From contig CP072532.1 of NCBI GenBank assembly GCA_021730225.1, forward strand, positions 765,230 through 829,229: 64,000 nucleotides of DNA, in the 5' to 3' direction. This DNA is from Candidatus Vesicomyidisocius sp. Agig_15_S12 (GTDB taxonomy: Bacteria; Pseudomonadota; Gammaproteobacteria; PS1; Pseudothioglobaceae). The notes beneath the pieces were generated by a model. The model ran no database searches, was not told the origin of the DNA, and was given only the letters and a program-made list of their open reading frames with translations. This document shows positions 38,536 through 64,000 of this stretch, one piece after another (positions within the stretch are counted from its first letter, which is position 1; the number at the start of each line of letters is the position of its first letter). The translations under genes and the position numbers were made by a program.

Positions 38536-39151
38536 TCTATACAATTAATTCATCAAAATTACTAACAATATTGATAAACTATCTACTTTAATTATATAAA
38601 ATATAGCTATATTTTCTTTATGAAACCAGCAATCTCCTGGATTATCCAAGACTCTAAAAATAATGACAAATCTTTAATCCCATTTAGATACTTTTATATC
38701 TACATCAATATATTAGAAATTTACCATTGCTTCTTTAAAAAATAGAATTCAACTATTTATTTCCCTATTATTAATAATTAGTACACACGATGTCATTAAA
38801 TTCACTAAAACAAATACCCTGTATGAGTTAAAAAACAAACTTCTATTTCTTTTATACTAAACACCTCAACTTAACAACCTCTCAAAAAAATAAAAAGCAG
38901 CAGGATATCAAAAAAAATAATTCTTGGTGTGAAAATTGTACAAGACAAACTACAATCAGTTTATATCTTCTTTACAAAGTAATAATATTGAGCGTCTTAA
39001 AAAGAGTGAGTAGTATTTTTTCTAGTATTTAAAAAATAACAGAGAGGTACTGAAGGAAGTCCAATTTAAAATGAGTATAAAAGTTCAATATAAATATAGT
39101 TTCTAATCCCATTTCAAATTATTATTTCTTAGGCGTATAATTTATCTCTTC
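38536..39151. other. gene-free region with one arm of a 52-bp inverted repeat
   Basis: 616 bp between the OsmC-like gene and tRNA-Ser. No ORF of note. It contains the left arm of a perfect inverted repeat (separate entry) and probably the tRNA promoter. Confidence 0.6.
38976..39027 (+). repeat. left arm of a perfect 52-bp inverted repeat
   Basis: Begins AAAGTAATAATATTGAGCGT and ends in TTTTTTCTAGTA. It is the exact reverse complement of 40312-40363 over all 52 bases, then identity stops on both sides. It lies 124 bp upstream of tRNA-Ser. Confidence 0.95.
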
Positions 39152-39241
39152 GGAGAGTTGGCCGAGTTGGCTGAAGGCGCGCCCCTGCTAAGGGTGTATA
39201 GGGTTTATCCCCTATCGAGGGTTCGAACCCCTCACTCTCCG
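39152..39241 (+). tRNA. tRNA-Ser (GCT), no encoded CCA
   Basis: 90 nt, class II. Acceptor GGAGAGT/ACTCTCC, anticodon loop CTGCTAA with anticodon GCT (reads AGC/AGT), long variable arm, T-loop TTCGAAC. The discriminator G is followed by CTA, so Cca must add the end. It lies on the segment bracketed by the inverted repeat. Confidence 0.96.
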
Positions 39242-39372
39242 CTATACTACTTCGTCTTTTTTTTGAAAACCTATCTTACACACGTAAAAATACTTATAGT
39301 ACGATTTAAAAATACAAAATTTAAATTAAATAAAATCTTCAAACTTTTTTCACAGTAAAATACTTAATTACC

Positions 39373-40152
39373 ATGATTGACATACCTTTAGTAATTGCCA
39401 AAAAAACTTATAACTCTCGCTTATTAGTTGGATCAGGAAAATATAAAGACCTTAATGAAACCAAACTGGCGACTGATATGGCAGAAGCTGATATCATCAC
39501 TGTTGCTATTCGACGTACTAATATTGGACAAAATGTCAATGAACCTAATCTATTAGATATTATCTCACCAAACAAATACACTATCCTACCGAATACTGCA
39601 GGTTGTTACAATGCTAAAGATGCTATTCGAACTTGCCAATTAGCACGTGAACTTTTAGGTGGGCATAATTTAATTAAATTAGAAATATTAGGAGATAAAA
39701 AAACACTTTATCCTAATATTGTTGAAACCCTATCTGCCGCAAAAACACTAGTTGATAACGAGTTTGATGTTATGGTTTATACCAGTGATGATCCAGTCGT
39801 TGCTAAAGAATTAGAAAATATTGGTTGCGTTGCAATAATGCCACTCGCCTCATTTATCGGTTCAGGTCAAGGTATTACCAATCCAACACAAATAAAACTC
39901 ATCAAAGAACACGCTACTGTACCAGTATTAATTGATGCTGGTATTGGTTGTGCAAGTGATGCCGCCAAGGCAATGGAACTTGGCTGTGATGGTGTACTAA
40001 TGAACTCAGCCATTGCCAATGCAAACAACCCAATTTTAATGGCAAGCGCTATGAAAAATGCCATTATTGCAGGACGAGAATCCTTCCTTTCTGGTAGAAT
40101 GATGAAGAAATCCTACGCTTCTGCTTCATCACCAATGGTGGATTTAATTTAA
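39373..40152 (+). CDS. thiG: thiazole synthase
   Basis: 259 residues, TIM-barrel enzyme that forms the thiazole phosphate of thiamine from DXP, dehydroglycine and ThiS-thiocarboxylate. Recognised by [12 protein letters not shown], the [11 protein letters not shown] block with the catalytic-site region, and the [20 protein letters not shown] phosphate site. In most bacteria thiS precedes it; there is no room for thiS between tRNA-Ser and this gene, so its partners must be elsewhere. It sits alone inside the 1.28-kb segment framed by inverted repeats. Confidence 0.97.
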
Positions 40153-58696: not shown

Positions 58697-59038
58697 CTAC
58701 TTGTTATTTAATTTATCAGGTGCACATTCCTTTGCTGGTGGCTCATAATTTGGATCGTTTGGATTCATAAACACAAAATGATAATCGCTGTTTTTATCTA
58801 TCTGATCAAAATCCACCACCATACCTTCAAGTAATACTTTTTGCTCATAAGCAAAAATATACTCAATACCATTAGATTCAAGGTGAATATCACTGTCATT
58901 ACGATCATCAAAACCCATCAAATATTGAAAACCATCATCAGTTTTATCGACAGAAAAGCGAATCAACAGTCCTTTATTTTCTGGATTATGAGTTGATAAA
59001 ATAATTTCATCCGACGCTTTTTTTGTAATTATAATCAT
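58697..59038 (-). CDS. dsrR: DsrR, A-type-carrier-like protein without ligand cysteines
   Basis: 113 residues with the IscA/HesB fold pattern (LLIRFSVDK, GFQYLMGFDD, near the N-terminal half), but without the three Cys of true iron-sulfur carriers; a single Cys near 106 is at the tail. This is as known for DsrR of Allochromatium vinosum, which supports expression of other dsr genes. It overlaps dsrN by 4 nt and ends the cluster. Confidence 0.86.
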   Translation of the reverse strand: MIIITKKASDEIILSTHNPENKGLLIRFSVDKTDDGFQYLMGFDDRNDSDIHLESNGIEYIFAYEQKVLLEGMVVDFDQIDKNSDYHFVFMNPNDPNYEPPAKECAPDKLNNK

Positions 59039-60411
59039 AGCTCTTGTTCTTTAACCTTATTTATAAAATTCACAAATTGTATAACCCATTCATTACTCGC
59101 CACATTATGCAAATGTGTATACGAAGCTAAAAGCTTATACTTCATAATACCATCAAACTTATTATTCACACCTACACCGCGCAAAACATTAAAAGCATAA
59201 CGTGTATTGGAACTAATATTTTTAAGCTTTGAGTAATGAAATTCATGTGCATAAATATGTTTAGATACTCCAGGCCAACAATGATCATCAGTTGGTTCCA
59301 ACTCAACATAACCTCTACCAATAGGCTTAGACATCATATAAGTATCTGCATCAATTACACCCATCATTGAATAGGTTTTTTTATTATGAGTAATGCTATT
59401 GGTTAAATACATTAAACCACCACATTCTACATATGTCGGTAAGTTTTGTTCTATTTTAGTTTTAATATCTTCTAATAAGGATTGATTAGCATTTAACGCT
59501 TTAAGTTGCATTTCTGGAAAGCCCCCCCCAATAAACAACCCATCACATATTGGCAAATTATTATCTTTAAGTGTATCAAAGTATTTTATACTAACACCTA
59601 ATGATTCAAATTTATCCAAATCATCCTGATAATAAAAATTAAACACAGAATCTTTAGCAATAGCAATAACGATTTTTTCCTTAATTATATTAATATTTAT
59701 ATATGTATTAATAATTTTCTTATTGGACTTGATACAATTAAAGTCCAATAATATATTAAGATCAACTTGATCAGTAATAATATTGGCAACTTTTTTGATA
59801 AAAGTTTGTGATTGTAGTGTTTCGTTAGCAGGCATTAAGCCTAAATGACGCTCATCAATTATTAATGCTTTAGAACGACGTACACAGCCTAACACAGAGA
59901 TGTCAGTGTAGTAATTAATAGCTTGTATCAATTTTGATTCATGACGCTCACTAGCTACTTTATTTAAAATAACGCCAGCAATATTTATCTCTTTATCAAA
60001 AACTTGATAACCACTAAGCAGTGGTGCAACGCCACGGGTAATACCTGTACTATCAATTACTAATATAACAGGAATCATTAATAATTTAGCAAGATCAGCG
60101 TTAGCATCACCCCCAGTAACACTCATACCATCAAACAGGCCTTTATTTCCTTCAATAATATCAATATCACTATTTGAACTTTGTTTTTGATACAACTGGA
60201 TTATTTCATCATCAGTCATATTATAAAAATCTAGATTATAACAAGGATTTCCGCTAGCTTTAGAAAGCCAAATAGGATCAATATAATCAGGCCCTTTTTT
60301 AAAAGTCTGAACATTTAAAGATTGTTGTTTAAATGCAGCACACAATCCTAAACTAATAACAGTTTTTCCTGATGATTTATGAGCAGCAGATAGATAAAAC
60401 GATAAGGACAT
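59035..60411 (-). CDS. dsrN: DsrN, siroheme amidase (CbiA/CobB family)
   Basis: 458 residues, glutamine amidotransferase of the cobyrinic acid a,c-diamide synthase family. It is proposed to amidate siroheme to siroamide for the Dsr sulfite reductase. P-loop SSGKTVISLGL at the N-terminus, FKKGPDYIDP, and the C-terminal glutaminase with the nucleophile in VECGGLMYL and a His near HEFHYS are present. Overlaps dsrR; 27 bp after dsrP. Confidence 0.93.
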   Translation of the reverse strand: MSLSFYLSAAHKSSGKTVISLGLCAAFKQQSLNVQTFKKGPDYIDPIWLSKASGNPCYNLDFYNMTDDEIIQLYQKQSSNSDIDIIEGNKGLFDGMSVTGGDANADLAKLLMIPVILVIDSTGITRGVAPLLSGYQVFDKEINIAGVILNKVASERHESKLIQAINYYTDISVLGCVRRSKALIIDERHLGLMPANETLQSQTFIKKVANIITDQVDLNILLDFNCIKSNKKIINTYININIIKEKIVIAIAKDSVFNFYYQDDLDKFESLGVSIKYFDTLKDNNLPICDGLFIGGGFPEMQLKALNANQSLLEDIKTKIEQNLPTYVECGGLMYLTNSITHNKKTYSMMGVIDADTYMMSKPIGRGYVELEPTDDHCWPGVSKHIYAHEFHYSKLKNISSNTRYAFNVLRGVGVNNKFDGIMKYKLLASYTHLHNVASNEWVIQFVNFINKVKEQEL

Positions 60412-60438: not shown

Positions 60439-61641
60439 TTATCTTTTATGATATGAATCAGCCAAATCATCCTCCAAACTCTCCGGTAAGAATGCTAAAA
60501 ATTTAACTAAAAATGTAACTATAATGATTGCTAAAGCAATACCGCCAATACCAAGAAATATTTCTGGCAATGAAACAAAATATTGAGCAATATCGCCATA
60601 ATCCCCTAAAACATCCTTGCCTGGAAATAACTCCATTGGATAAGCCTGACCACCAATAATAATAACGTATAACTGGACAAATCCACCAATAATAATTAAT
60701 ACAGAAGACAAACCTAACATTGAGCGATCTTCTCTAGTAATAGGATGATAAATCAATATCATTGGTACAATACCCCCCAAAATAATTTGACCATACCAAA
60801 ATAATTTTGTATAAATACCACCATCAAAAAGAATAAAGTTCTCAATACCGGTATTTTCTGCTAAATACGAATTACCCAAATGATATACCGCTACAAAATA
60901 CATAACTGCTGCAACAAACACACCCAAAAGATTTCTCAAACGATTTACTATAATATTTCCTAAAGGCCTGTTAGTCCACTTATAGCTCGCCATTAAGATC
61001 AGTATGAAAGATGCCAACCCAAATGAAAAAGACATAATAATAAACATAGGGGCCATAATAACAGCATCATAAGCTTGTCTAGCAACCAAAAATCCAAAAA
61101 TAGATCCTGTTCCTGTAGTTAAAATTAAACGCCAACTAAAAGCAACTAAACCCACTTTATGACTAAACTTATTCATGCGACGCTCAAACATCATCCATAA
61201 ATAAATAGCAACTACTACAAAGAAGCCGTTATATAAAATAATATTCCAAGCAAAAATTGATTTAAAATTATATTCAGTCATTGCAACAATCAAACGATCT
61301 ATACGACCTAAATCAAGAACTAATACCATTAACCCTCCGGCTAATAATGATAACGCAACTAAACCAGACAAACGTGATAATGGTTTATATAACTTCTTAT
61401 TAAACACAGAAGAAATTGAAGCCACGTTTAATGCACCACTCGCTGCTACTATCAAGAACAAGGCAAAAACATGTGGCATACCCCATACAATACGATTATT
61501 CATACCAGTCACAAAATGACCATGGTGCTCCACATAGTACACACTAACCAATGCAGCCAAAATTAAAATACCAAGTCCTGTAATTAAAGTATAAAAGCCT
61601 AGACTTTTTCCTTCAATTTGCTCAAAACGAATATTACTCAT
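60439..61641 (-). CDS. dsrP: DsrP, NrfD-like integral membrane subunit
   Basis: 400 residues, about ten transmembrane helices of the NrfD/PsrC family, with hydrophobic helices from about residue 15 through 390 and a conserved YxxGxx-type loop. It passes electrons between DsrJ/DsrO and the quinone pool. Follows dsrO by 25 bp, as in the known cluster. Confidence 0.93.
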   Translation of the reverse strand: MSNIRFEQIEGKSLGFYTLITGLGILILAALVSVYYVEHHGHFVTGMNNRIVWGMPHVFALFLIVAASGALNVASISSVFNKKLYKPLSRLSGLVALSLLAGGLMVLVLDLGRIDRLIVAMTEYNFKSIFAWNIILYNGFFVVVAIYLWMMFERRMNKFSHKVGLVAFSWRLILTTGTGSIFGFLVARQAYDAVIMAPMFIIMSFSFGLASFILILMASYKWTNRPLGNIIVNRLRNLLGVFVAAVMYFVAVYHLGNSYLAENTGIENFILFDGGIYTKLFWYGQIILGGIVPMILIYHPITREDRSMLGLSSVLIIIGGFVQLYVIIIGGQAYPMELFPGKDVLGDYGDIAQYFVSLPEIFLGIGGIALAIIIVTFLVKFLAFLPESLEDDLADSYHKR

Positions 61642-61666: not shown

Positions 61667-62398
61667 TTAAATGCCACTATAACGTACACCAGTATTTAGA
61701 TTAAGATCTGCCCTGATTTGTGAAGATTGAACTATTCTCAAGGTTTGGTTTATTTGGCTTGATTCATCATACAAATTACCAAAAATAACAGCTTCGCTAT
61801 TAACACTCTCAACACAAGCAGGTGTTTCACCTTTGTCAACCCTGTGTACACACATCGTACAAGCTTCAACTGTGCCTTTACCCCGAGGCATATGTTCTTT
61901 CTGATTCTTTAATGTTTCATGTACAAATGAACGTGCGTCATATGGACAAGCCATCATACAATAACGACAACCAATACATAAATGCTTATCTACCAACACA
62001 ATTCCATCTTCACGTTTCATAGAAGCGTTTGTTGGACAAACATCAACACAAGGTGGTTCTTCACAATGCTGACACATAAGTGCAAGATTACTTACTTTAT
62101 TAGTCGTTTTATCTTTAACCTTTAGTTTTTTAATCCACCCTGGTTTTTGACTAGCTGTTGAGCGTATCTCAGCACCCCAACCTTGTTCTTGTTGACAAGC
62201 ATTAACCATGCCATCAATATCAGTCTCAGTTAGCTTATTGGTATCAATCAACAAGCCCCAACGCTTTTTATTAGTAACAGGTATTTCACTAACACTAGCA
62301 AATGTGGTAAGTGTAATACCACTAGCAACTATAACAACTCCTGTCGTTGTTACATTCATGATTTTAATAAAATCTCGACGATTTAATGTTTTATTCAT
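61667..62398 (-). CDS. dsrO: DsrO, periplasmic iron-sulfur protein
   Basis: 243 residues from the ATG 62398, which overlaps the dsrJ stop (ATGA); an ATG at 62431 is less likely because it would displace the Tat signal. Residues 6-12 (NRRDFIK) are a twin-arginine signal with a hydrophobic stretch to about 35. Cysteines: C68; C109/112/117/121; C141/144/147/151; C180/183/195. Of the four ferredoxin-like motifs the first keeps only its last Cys, and the fourth lacks its last (V199), so only three [4Fe-4S] clusters seem possible. It passes electrons between DsrJ and DsrP. Confidence 0.93.
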   Translation of the reverse strand: MNKTLNRRDFIKIMNVTTTGVVIVASGITLTTFASVSEIPVTNKKRWGLLIDTNKLTETDIDGMVNACQQEQGWGAEIRSTASQKPGWIKKLKVKDKTTNKVSNLALMCQHCEEPPCVDVCPTNASMKREDGIVLVDKHLCIGCRYCMMACPYDARSFVHETLKNQKEHMPRGKGTVEACTMCVHRVDKGETPACVESVNSEAVIFGNLYDESSQINQTLRIVQSSQIRADLNLNTGVRYSGI

Positions 62399-62778
62399 AA
62401 TAAACCTTCCCTTAGAGTCGTACGATGACAACTAAAACAATCAAAGCTGACACCGACCTTCTTATGACAATCTGAACAAAATTGACCTTTCTTATCAACC
62501 GAATAATATTGGTTATTTGTCTTATTTTTATTAGCATGACAAGACACACAACCTTTTAAAGAATAGTTATTTGTTCGTATACCTTTACGCAAGGTTTTAT
62601 CGCGTTTATGACGTAATAATTCAGGATGCATTTTTCGAATAATTGAAGGACTTTCATGAAATACTTTACCGGATGCCTTAATAGAACTAGCTTGCTCACC
62701 AAGATTAGCATATTCGTCAATATACGCAAATACACTACTTACCAACAAACTTAAAAAAACAACTAAAAAATGCTTCAT
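62395..62778 (-). CDS. dsrJ: DsrJ, triheme cytochrome c
   Basis: 127 residues with an N-terminal signal sequence (about 1-18). Heme motifs are C77-x2-C80-H81, C101-x2-C104-H105 and C114-x2-C117-H118. The block RKMHPELLRHKRD upstream is the family-typical region with axial ligands. No Cys outside the heme motifs exists. It is the periplasmic electron-transfer subunit of DsrMKJOP; dsrM and dsrK must lie beyond the window. Confidence 0.93.
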   Translation of the reverse strand: MKHFLVVFLSLLVSSVFAYIDEYANLGEQASSIKASGKVFHESPSIIRKMHPELLRHKRDKTLRKGIRTNNYSLKGCVSCHANKNKTNNQYYSVDKKGQFCSDCHKKVGVSFDCFSCHRTTLREGLL

Positions 62779-62807: not shown

Positions 62808-64000
62808 CTACTCACCAAGACCCATTTGTATATAACCAGTCGGACAAACATCAGCACAAATATGACAACCAATACACTTATTATAATCAGTATCAACATA
62901 CCTACCTAACGTTGCTTTGTTTTTCTTAACTTTAAATACCGCATCTTGCGGACAATACATCACACAGTTATCACATTCAAAACATAATCCACAAGACATA
63001 CAACGGGCTGCTTCTTTTTGCGCTTCCTTTTCAGTATAACCAATTAAACGCTCATTAAAATTACCTAATACGTTATCAACATCCACTAATTTATGATTAC
63101 GTTGATTGTGTTGTTCATGATCAAAATGACCTAAAAACAATTCTGTATGTGGAATGATAGAAGCAAATGCCCGATCTTCATAATTATGCACGGCAAAATT
63201 AGCGCTATCTGTTGCAGTTGCAACATCAGAGCCTGACTTGTAAGACTCAGGAGCAAGATCCCATTCTTTTAATTTCTCCATTAAATCAAAATAACTAACG
63301 TCGACCTTAGGGCGAGTATGCTGCTCGGAACCTGAAAGATAATCACAGATACTTTCAGCAACAACTGATGCTTGACCAATGGCAGTTGTCAATAGGTGAG
63401 GACGAATCACATCACCACAAACAAAAAAACCTGGCTTATTGGGGACTTGATAGTTCTTATCTGCGTTAATAAATCCATGCTTATTAAAGAAAGAAATATC
63501 TATACCTTCAGAATCAACACCTTGACCAATTGCAGAAACAATTAATTCACACTCAATGTCAAACTCAGAACCTTTAATTTGGGTACTACCATCCTCTTCT
63601 AAACGAATCATGCGTAATGCAGTTGCACGACCATCTTTTCCTGTAATTACTTTAACAGGTTGTAATTGACCTTGAATTTCAACACCTTCACGAGTCGCAT
63701 CATCAATTTCTTCTTGTGCTGCCGGCATATTTCCAACAGTAGAACGTGTTGTTAATAATACGTCTGCACCTAAACGTTTAGATGTATCAACCACATCATG
63801 TGTTGTATCACTAAAAATGATACGTTCAGGACGATCTTTCTCAGCAGCGTTATTAATATTACCCAAACGACGTGCAACTGATACAACATCAATAGATGTA
63901 TCACCTCCTCCAATACAAATTACTTTACCTGTAATATGCCTTAAACGACCTTGATTATATGCTTCAAGAAAAGCAATACCAGAAACACAATTTGTTGCTT
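62808..64000 (-). CDS. dsrL: DsrL, NAD(P)H:acceptor iron-sulfur flavoprotein (5' end outside window)
   Basis: C-terminal 397 codons of DsrL; the frame is open to the window edge. A NAD(P)-binding GltD-like domain (GGGDTSIDVVSVARRLGN) and the second FAD motif (FVCGDVIRPHLLTTAIGQA) are followed by a C-terminal ferredoxin part with CMSCGLCFECDNCVMYCP and CIGCHICADVCP, that is two [4Fe-4S] clusters. DsrL in sulfur oxidisers couples DsrAB to NAD(P)H. It precedes dsrJ by 29 bp. Confidence 0.95.
   Translation of the reverse strand, partial: ATNCVSGIAFLEAYNQGRLRHITGKVICIGGGDTSIDVVSVARRLGNINNAAEKDRPERIIFSDTTHDVVDTSKRLGADVLLTTRSTVGNMPAAQEEIDDATREGVEIQGQLQPVKVITGKDGRATALRMIRLEEDGSTQIKGSEFDIECELIVSAIGQGVDSEGIDISFFNKHGFINADKNYQVPNKPGFFVCGDVIRPHLLTTAIGQASVVAESICDYLSGSEQHTRPKVDVSYFDLMEKLKEWDLAPESYKSGSDVATATDSANFAVHNYEDRAFASIIPHTELFLGHFDHEQHNQRNHKLVDVDNVLGNFNERLIGYTEKEAQKEAARCMSCGLCFECDNCVMYCPQDAVFKVKKNKATLGRYVDTDYNKCIGCHICADVCPTGYIQMGLGE

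Follow-up and report, generated by a model that had tools for sequence, protein, structure and literature searches.

The dsrO gene at this locus raises the question of whether a DsrO protein can lose one of its [4Fe-4S] clusters as a unit, and whether such a loss is peculiar to a single genome. The available passages of PMC8076601 give DsrO four [4Fe-4S] clusters and 16 cysteines; those of PMC10504309 speak of several clusters, and those of PMC13047784 do not give a number. The DsrO encoded in the window (the whole 64,000-nucleotide stretch of DNA analysed) differs from the four-cluster description in lacking the ligands of the cluster called FS1, and has 12 cysteines in place of the 16 expected for four clusters.

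The ligand set of DsrO

The features of the locus are as follows, in window coordinates.

58697..59038, minus strand: IscA/SufA-like protein (TIGR00049, 34.9 bits, under the cut-off of 58.8)
59035..60411, minus strand: cobyrinate a,c-diamide synthase-like protein (TIGR00379, 426.3 bits, cut-off 261.4)
60439..61641, minus strand: dsrP, NrfD-family membrane subunit (PF03916, 177.5 bits)
61667..62398, minus strand: dsrO, putative three-cluster variant (NCBIfam NF045797, 290.8 bits, over the cut-off of 200)
61802..61861, minus strand: motif IV of DsrO, with C180, C183 and C195 (FS2) and V199 at the place of the fourth FS1 ligand (alignment)
61946..61978, minus strand: motif III, with C141, C144 and C147 (FS4), C151 (FS3) and Y146 (alignment; NarH ligand table)
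62036..62074, minus strand: motif II, with C109, C112 and C117 (FS3) and C121 (FS4) (alignment; NarH ligand table)
62195..62233, minus strand: motif I, residues 56-68, with L56, I61 and M64, and C68 kept as an FS2 ligand (alignments)
62375..62380, minus strand: twin-arginine pair Arg7-Arg8 (sequence; NRRDF at residues 6-10)
62395..62778, minus strand: dsrJ, triheme cytochrome c with three CxxCH motifs (profile search, motif count)
62808..63998, minus strand: flavoprotein oxidoreductase with ferredoxin motifs, C-terminal part, cut by the window end (NF009410, 345.3 bits, under the cut-off of 516)

The dsrO reading frame is open over 243 amino acids from an ATG that overlaps the dsrJ stop codon (ATGA); dsrJ precedes the gene and dsrP follows it. 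Neither DsrJ (40.8 bits against 100) nor DsrP (53.9 against 350) reaches its NCBIfam cut-off; DsrP is over the Pfam NrfD cut-off of 25.8 bits. From family knowledge, the product of dsrP presumably interacts with quinone, and Arg7-Arg8 of DsrO is predicted to belong to a Tat-type export signal. By position, we take the flavoprotein, cobyrinate synthase-like and IscA/SufA-like genes to be dsrL-like, dsrN-like and dsrR-like. The genome is a single contig of 1,033,397 bases, and the nearest named relatives of its DsrO, among the best 80 of 588 loci, are those of Candidatus Vesicomyosocius (93%) and Candidatus Ruthia (86%); the source is therefore probably a vesicomyid-clam symbiont or a near relative of one. 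In one Candidatus Ruthia genome (L005), which may be of a species other than R. magnifica, dsrJ adjoins dsrO; the R. magnifica genome is stated, in the available part of PMC2642828, not to encode dsrJNRS.

The 12 cysteines of DsrO (68, 109, 112, 117, 121, 141, 144, 147, 151, 180, 183 and 195) form three complete ligand sets: C68 with C180, C183 and C195; C109, C112 and C117 with C151; and C121 with C141, C144 and C147. These sets were assigned to FS2, FS3 and FS4, respectively, because they follow the same motif logic as the ligand table of NarH, in which, according to the available text of PMC5338063, FS1 is bound by Cys16, 19, 22 and 263 and FS2 by Cys26, 244, 247 and 259; the same text describes NarH FS4 as a [3Fe-4S] cluster, one cysteine short. 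The absent set comprises the first three cysteines of motif I and the final one of motif IV, whose columns hold L56, I61, M64 and V199. The original prediction, a coordinated loss of cluster 1 with C68 alone left in motif I and C180, C183 and C195 left in motif IV, is thus borne out, since the absent set is that of NarH FS1. It erred in one residue, having named T58 as the replacement of the first motif I cysteine: residue 58 is Glu, and the cysteine column aligns with L56 because the DsrO spacing is C-x(2,3)-C-x2-C-x3-C. A motif I cysteine displaced to another place is rejected, as the 12 cysteines leave none elsewhere.

An AlphaFold2 (AF2) model of the protein (mean pLDDT 80.9) has the fold of NrfC/PsrB iron-sulfur subunits, with PsrB 2vpw_B (Z 22.2, rmsd 1.8, 177 residues) and ArrB 6cz7_B (Z 22.2, rmsd 2.3, 189 residues) tied as best matches. 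The models do not discriminate three from four clusters, because motif I forms the same helix in the model of a four-ligand DsrO (L016). A genome-wide loss of FS1-type clusters was rejected: NarH of nitrate reductase follows the same ligand logic, and the NarH of this genome (L002, G000:C1 near 295,900; TIGR01660, 927 bits), unlike its DsrO, keeps the FS1 motifs CIGCHTCSVTC and CTFC...CSETC.

Distribution of the FS1 ligands among DsrO proteins

The ligands were surveyed in the best 80 of 588 loci of a genome-contig scan and in further searches of the family (83 genomes), class (369) and phylum (398), part of whose loci were fetched. The 285 loci and the window gave 282 rows with a DsrO-like match, 260 of them distinct. 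Leaving out another protein (L129) and two truncated rows (L131 and L132, both without the last motif IV cysteine) gave 257, and setting aside six outgroup paralogues (L251-L256) gave 251 DsrO; L130 (G015), where the match has an inner stop, yielded no DsrO match. This sample contains no locus named Allochromatium, Chlorobi or a confirmed sulfate reducer. L131 (G055), from a genome of the window's family, has dsrO in two reading frames on contig 41 (matches 39029-39412 and 39406-39732).

Cysteines are present at all of positions 56, 61, 64 and 199 in 186 of the 251 distinct DsrO and at none of 56, 61 and 199 in the other 65, with no mixed case, as expected of the coordinated loss proposed for the window. 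One row (L190) was counted among the 186 because its alignment column holds Cys, motif IV reading PSCVDAC. Fifty-five of the 65 lack all four cysteines and 10 have a lone C64, so the loss does not always extend to the whole set. None of the 65 deviates at any of the other 12 ligand positions, where a single Cys-to-Ser change was found among all 251. The cysteine count from residue 42 to the end is 12-14 in the FS1-lacking and 16-18 in the FS1-keeping proteins, and the twin-arginine pair occurs in 65/65 and 184/186, respectively. In a later extension, 34 further DsrO that differ from every earlier row (24 FS1-lacking and 10 FS1-keeping, not collapsed among themselves) again included no mixed case; two further new rows were viral-contig proteins and not DsrO.

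Two side observations concern individual residues. The Cys-to-Ser change lies at C195, an FS2 ligand, in L239 (G365), which has all FS1 ligands and may be a variant or a sequencing error. Trp74, right after motif I, occurs in 63/65 FS1-lacking and 52/186 FS1-keeping DsrO; this residue could be a marker or a forerunner of cluster loss, or could simply reflect descent.

In the window's family (Pseudothioglobaceae according to the tree tool, to which we assume the label Thioglobaceae also applies), a DsrO over the cut-off was found in 46 of 83 genomes, the window's included, and FS1 is absent from all 46 (the window and 45 others). The same holds for all 30 loci read from an order centred on G156, in which 55 of 63 genomes have a match; this order is here called Thiotrichaceae-like because two of its members, G156 and G385, cluster with Thiothrix in the tree. 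FS1 is also absent from loci titled Thiothrix, Leucothrix, Cocleimonas and Thiotrichaceae, from the Magnetovibrio-titled L034 and Hyphomicrobiales-titled L072, and from the pairs L081/L242 and L162/L169. The suggestion that the ligand set might be a shared trait of a DsrO subfamily therefore holds for the sampled family, where it is fixed, and fails for DsrO at large, which is not uniform: the four FS1 ligands are present in most of the distinct proteins (186/251). Judged by their record titles, some FS1-keeping loci also come from sulfur or iron oxidizers, such as Gallionella, Thiomargarita and Thioploca.

FS1 is likewise kept in L266-L285, DsrO from other genomes of the phylum. Upstream of dsrJ, we take the reading frames to be DsrF- and DsrH-like in L270 and L280 and DsrF-like in L285; the genomes concerned may belong to sulfur oxidizers with a different gene order. 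Three loci came from a scan of viral contigs, but none could serve as DsrO; the 115 records from a plasmid scan all stay below 60% identity, and the 30 listed among them mostly carry the label DsrO or TtrB. Neither scan yielded a DsrO of a confirmed sulfate reducer. Among the matches listed, the DsrO-named plasmid proteins (Azospirillum, Citrobacter and others) share less than 45% identity with the query, and the name is perhaps over-applied.

The presumed DsrJ end of the wire

We consider it highly probable, from these sequence comparisons, that the locus encodes a working DsrO of a sulfur-oxidizing DsrMKJOP complex, with three [4Fe-4S] clusters (FS2, FS3 and FS4) and a wire that ends at FS2. 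FS1 would have been lost as a unit: the ligands in motif I and motif IV would have gone at the same time, with the other 12 ligands kept, and hydrophobic residues (L56, I61, M64 and V199) would have filled the vacant positions. The wire from the quinone site of DsrP would then stop at FS2, and DsrJ would therefore exchange electrons with FS2 directly or use another route. We infer that the three clusters are truly held, that FS1 was formerly the contact point of DsrJ, that the shortened wire works and that the contact is now with FS2 directly. All but one of the 65 FS1-lacking loci contain a DsrJ open reading frame, the exception being a 2.2-kb piece (L105) in which none was found.

DsrJ would dock at the FS1 end, where it is placed because of the order of the chain in relatives: in NarH-type chains, as far as the available text of PMC8387239 and PMC8301774 goes, FS1 is the neighbour of FS0 in the catalytic partner, and FS4 lies near the heme of the third subunit. 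The other end of the wire can be placed by a tyrosine. In the available part of PMC13059093, QrcC Y113 stands between two ligands of the quinone-proximal cluster and is modelled over the quinone site. Its counterpart in DsrO is Y146 in motif III (Tyr in 250/251 DsrO), so that motif III would sit at the membrane end and FS1 at the opposite one, farthest from the quinone site. By this analogy, FS1 should be the cluster where DsrJ is expected, and losing it would shorten the wire there. Among the PDB sequence-search matches with DsrO, DsrP and DsrJ there was no DsrMKJOP structure.

A more ambitious idea, which we hold to be speculative and somewhat doubtful, is that FS1 acts as an evolutionary switch: its removal as a unit in several sulfur-oxidizing lineages, with a rebuilt DsrJ-DsrO contact, would bring a DsrJ heme directly to FS2 and alter the midpoint potential of the periplasmic arm or its bias in direction.

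DsrJ itself varies in this region. The window DsrJ has no cysteine before the R..H motif, a residue present in most other DsrJ and presumably the one investigated as a distal heme ligand in the DsrJ of A. vinosum. It is absent from all 45 family DsrJ, with His at or near its place in most rows listed, and also from some loci with alphaproteobacterial titles and some titled Cocleimonas or Leucothrix. The unusual Cys-side heme ligation of DsrJ thus seems to be dispensable. That its loss and the loss of FS1 are a single, linked rewiring of the DsrJ-DsrO contact appears unlikely. Both are absent in 45/45 family rows with DsrJ, and in raw counts the DsrJ cysteine is missing from 50 of 63 FS1-lacking against 5 of 181 FS1-keeping rows; however, there is no association in phylogenetically independent pairs, a comparison of five pairs with little power in which the cysteine moves with FS1 in an average fraction of 0.4. 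Moreover, each change occurs by itself: FS1 is lost and the cysteine kept in the Thiothrix-type rows and in four further lineages (L034; L072; L081 with L242; L162 with L169), and the cysteine is lost and FS1 kept in L026, L036, L064, L082 and L257.

Origins of the variant and its meaning

Trees built without the ligand regions bear on whether the three-cluster form arose once and then spread by gene transfer, an explanation that we regard as distinctly improbable beside repeated loss. The DsrO-only FastTree (257 rows) has five changes of FS1 state and joins the window's family to the Thiotrichaceae-like rows (support 87). A DsrO+DsrP tree has six changes, and its branches with SH-aLRT of 95 or more require no fewer than five of these. 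Supported branches deserve less trust here, as the tree comes from a quick IQ-TREE search with SH-aLRT as its sole measure of support, and IQ-TREE issued a warning about long branches meeting among outgroup and distant rows. The tree comprises 78 rows, leaving out the long-branch rows L250 and L192 as well as L118, which is 28% filled and was misplaced in a first tree of 81 rows with seven changes.

Forcing all FS1-lacking rows into a single clade is 74.75 log units worse (p-AU 0.0418, borderline and from the quick tree), which speaks against one origin; the test does not reject a clade of the Thiotrichaceae-like rows and the window's family (p-AU 0.40), and five is therefore the safer count of changes. 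Leu at 56 in 59 of the 65 FS1-lacking DsrO would suit a common source, but the other replacements differ between groups: the family has Ile61 in 46/46 and mostly Val199, and the 19 rows outside it mostly have Gly61 and Ala or Ser at 199. Because the outgroup paralogues retain FS1, the change was more likely a loss than a gain. FS1 loss is thus not peculiar to this genome, being fixed in the sampled family and of separate origin in other lineages. From the alignments and trees, FS1 seems to have been lost several separate times among these relatives, and the pathway seems to tolerate shortening at that end.

Decay through genome reduction alone is not favoured. The periplasmic JOP arm might be becoming dispensable under relaxed constraint, with FS1 decaying first and DsrO losing function; the genome is small (1.03 Mb), its nearest named relatives are vesicomyid clam symbionts, and dN/dS is higher in dsrJ (0.176-0.399) than in dsrP (0.084-0.133). 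Against this, which makes such decay very improbable, dsrO is under purifying selection, with a low dN/dS (0.125-0.236 against six relatives), and the remaining 12 ligands are unchanged in all FS1-lacking DsrO. DsrJ keeps three CxxCH motifs in 63 of the 64 FS1-lacking rows that have it (one motif in L111), and the trait also occurs in bigger genomes (G052, 2.8 Mb, L102; G1157, 5.0 Mb, L333). That FS1 is still present and bound by non-Cys residues or the lone C64 is scarcely credible: non-Cys ligands exist in FS0 of nitrate reductase and nitrite oxidoreductase (available text of PMC8387239 and PMC8301774) and C64 is kept in 10/65, but the replacements are mainly Leu, Ile, Gly, Met, Val and Ala, mostly unable to ligate, and none of the four window residues is Asp, His, Cys or Ser.

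Compared with known systems, the window protein shares with the DsrO of DsrMKJOP (NF045797) the profile match, the twin-arginine signal, the dsrJ-dsrO-dsrP order, the FS2-FS4 ligands and the tyrosine predicted to lie over the quinone site. PsrB of polysulfide reductase, with ArrB the closest solved fold, is likewise an iron-sulfur subunit on an NrfD-family membrane subunit; unlike the window DsrO, it retains the motif I cysteines in the alignment, and we take its partner to be a molybdoenzyme and not a triheme cytochrome. The beta subunits of the soluble tungsten formate dehydrogenase and of transhydroxylase (1h0h_B and 4v4c_B; Z 16.4 and 18.7) have the same fold and, we assume, three clusters each. 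Among the titles listed, searches of the literature found no earlier report of FS1 loss in DsrO, and they found none on the DsrO of SUP05 or of Thiothrix; most subscription papers lie outside these searches, and an earlier mention is possible. Judged from sequence, the protein thus appears to be a three-cluster form of DsrO that is both shared and recurrent; within the reach of these searches its details are new, and its kind is ordinary.

Annotating DsrO with four clusters by default is not warranted. The window's family includes, by record titles, clam and mussel symbionts that live by sulfur oxidation, and to our knowledge the role of DsrJ and the periplasmic arm of DsrMKJOP in that process is an open question. 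The repeated natural removal of the outermost cluster would make three- and four-cluster complexes comparable and the role of the wire end testable; if FS1 does act as a switch, such a comparison would reveal the role of DsrJ.
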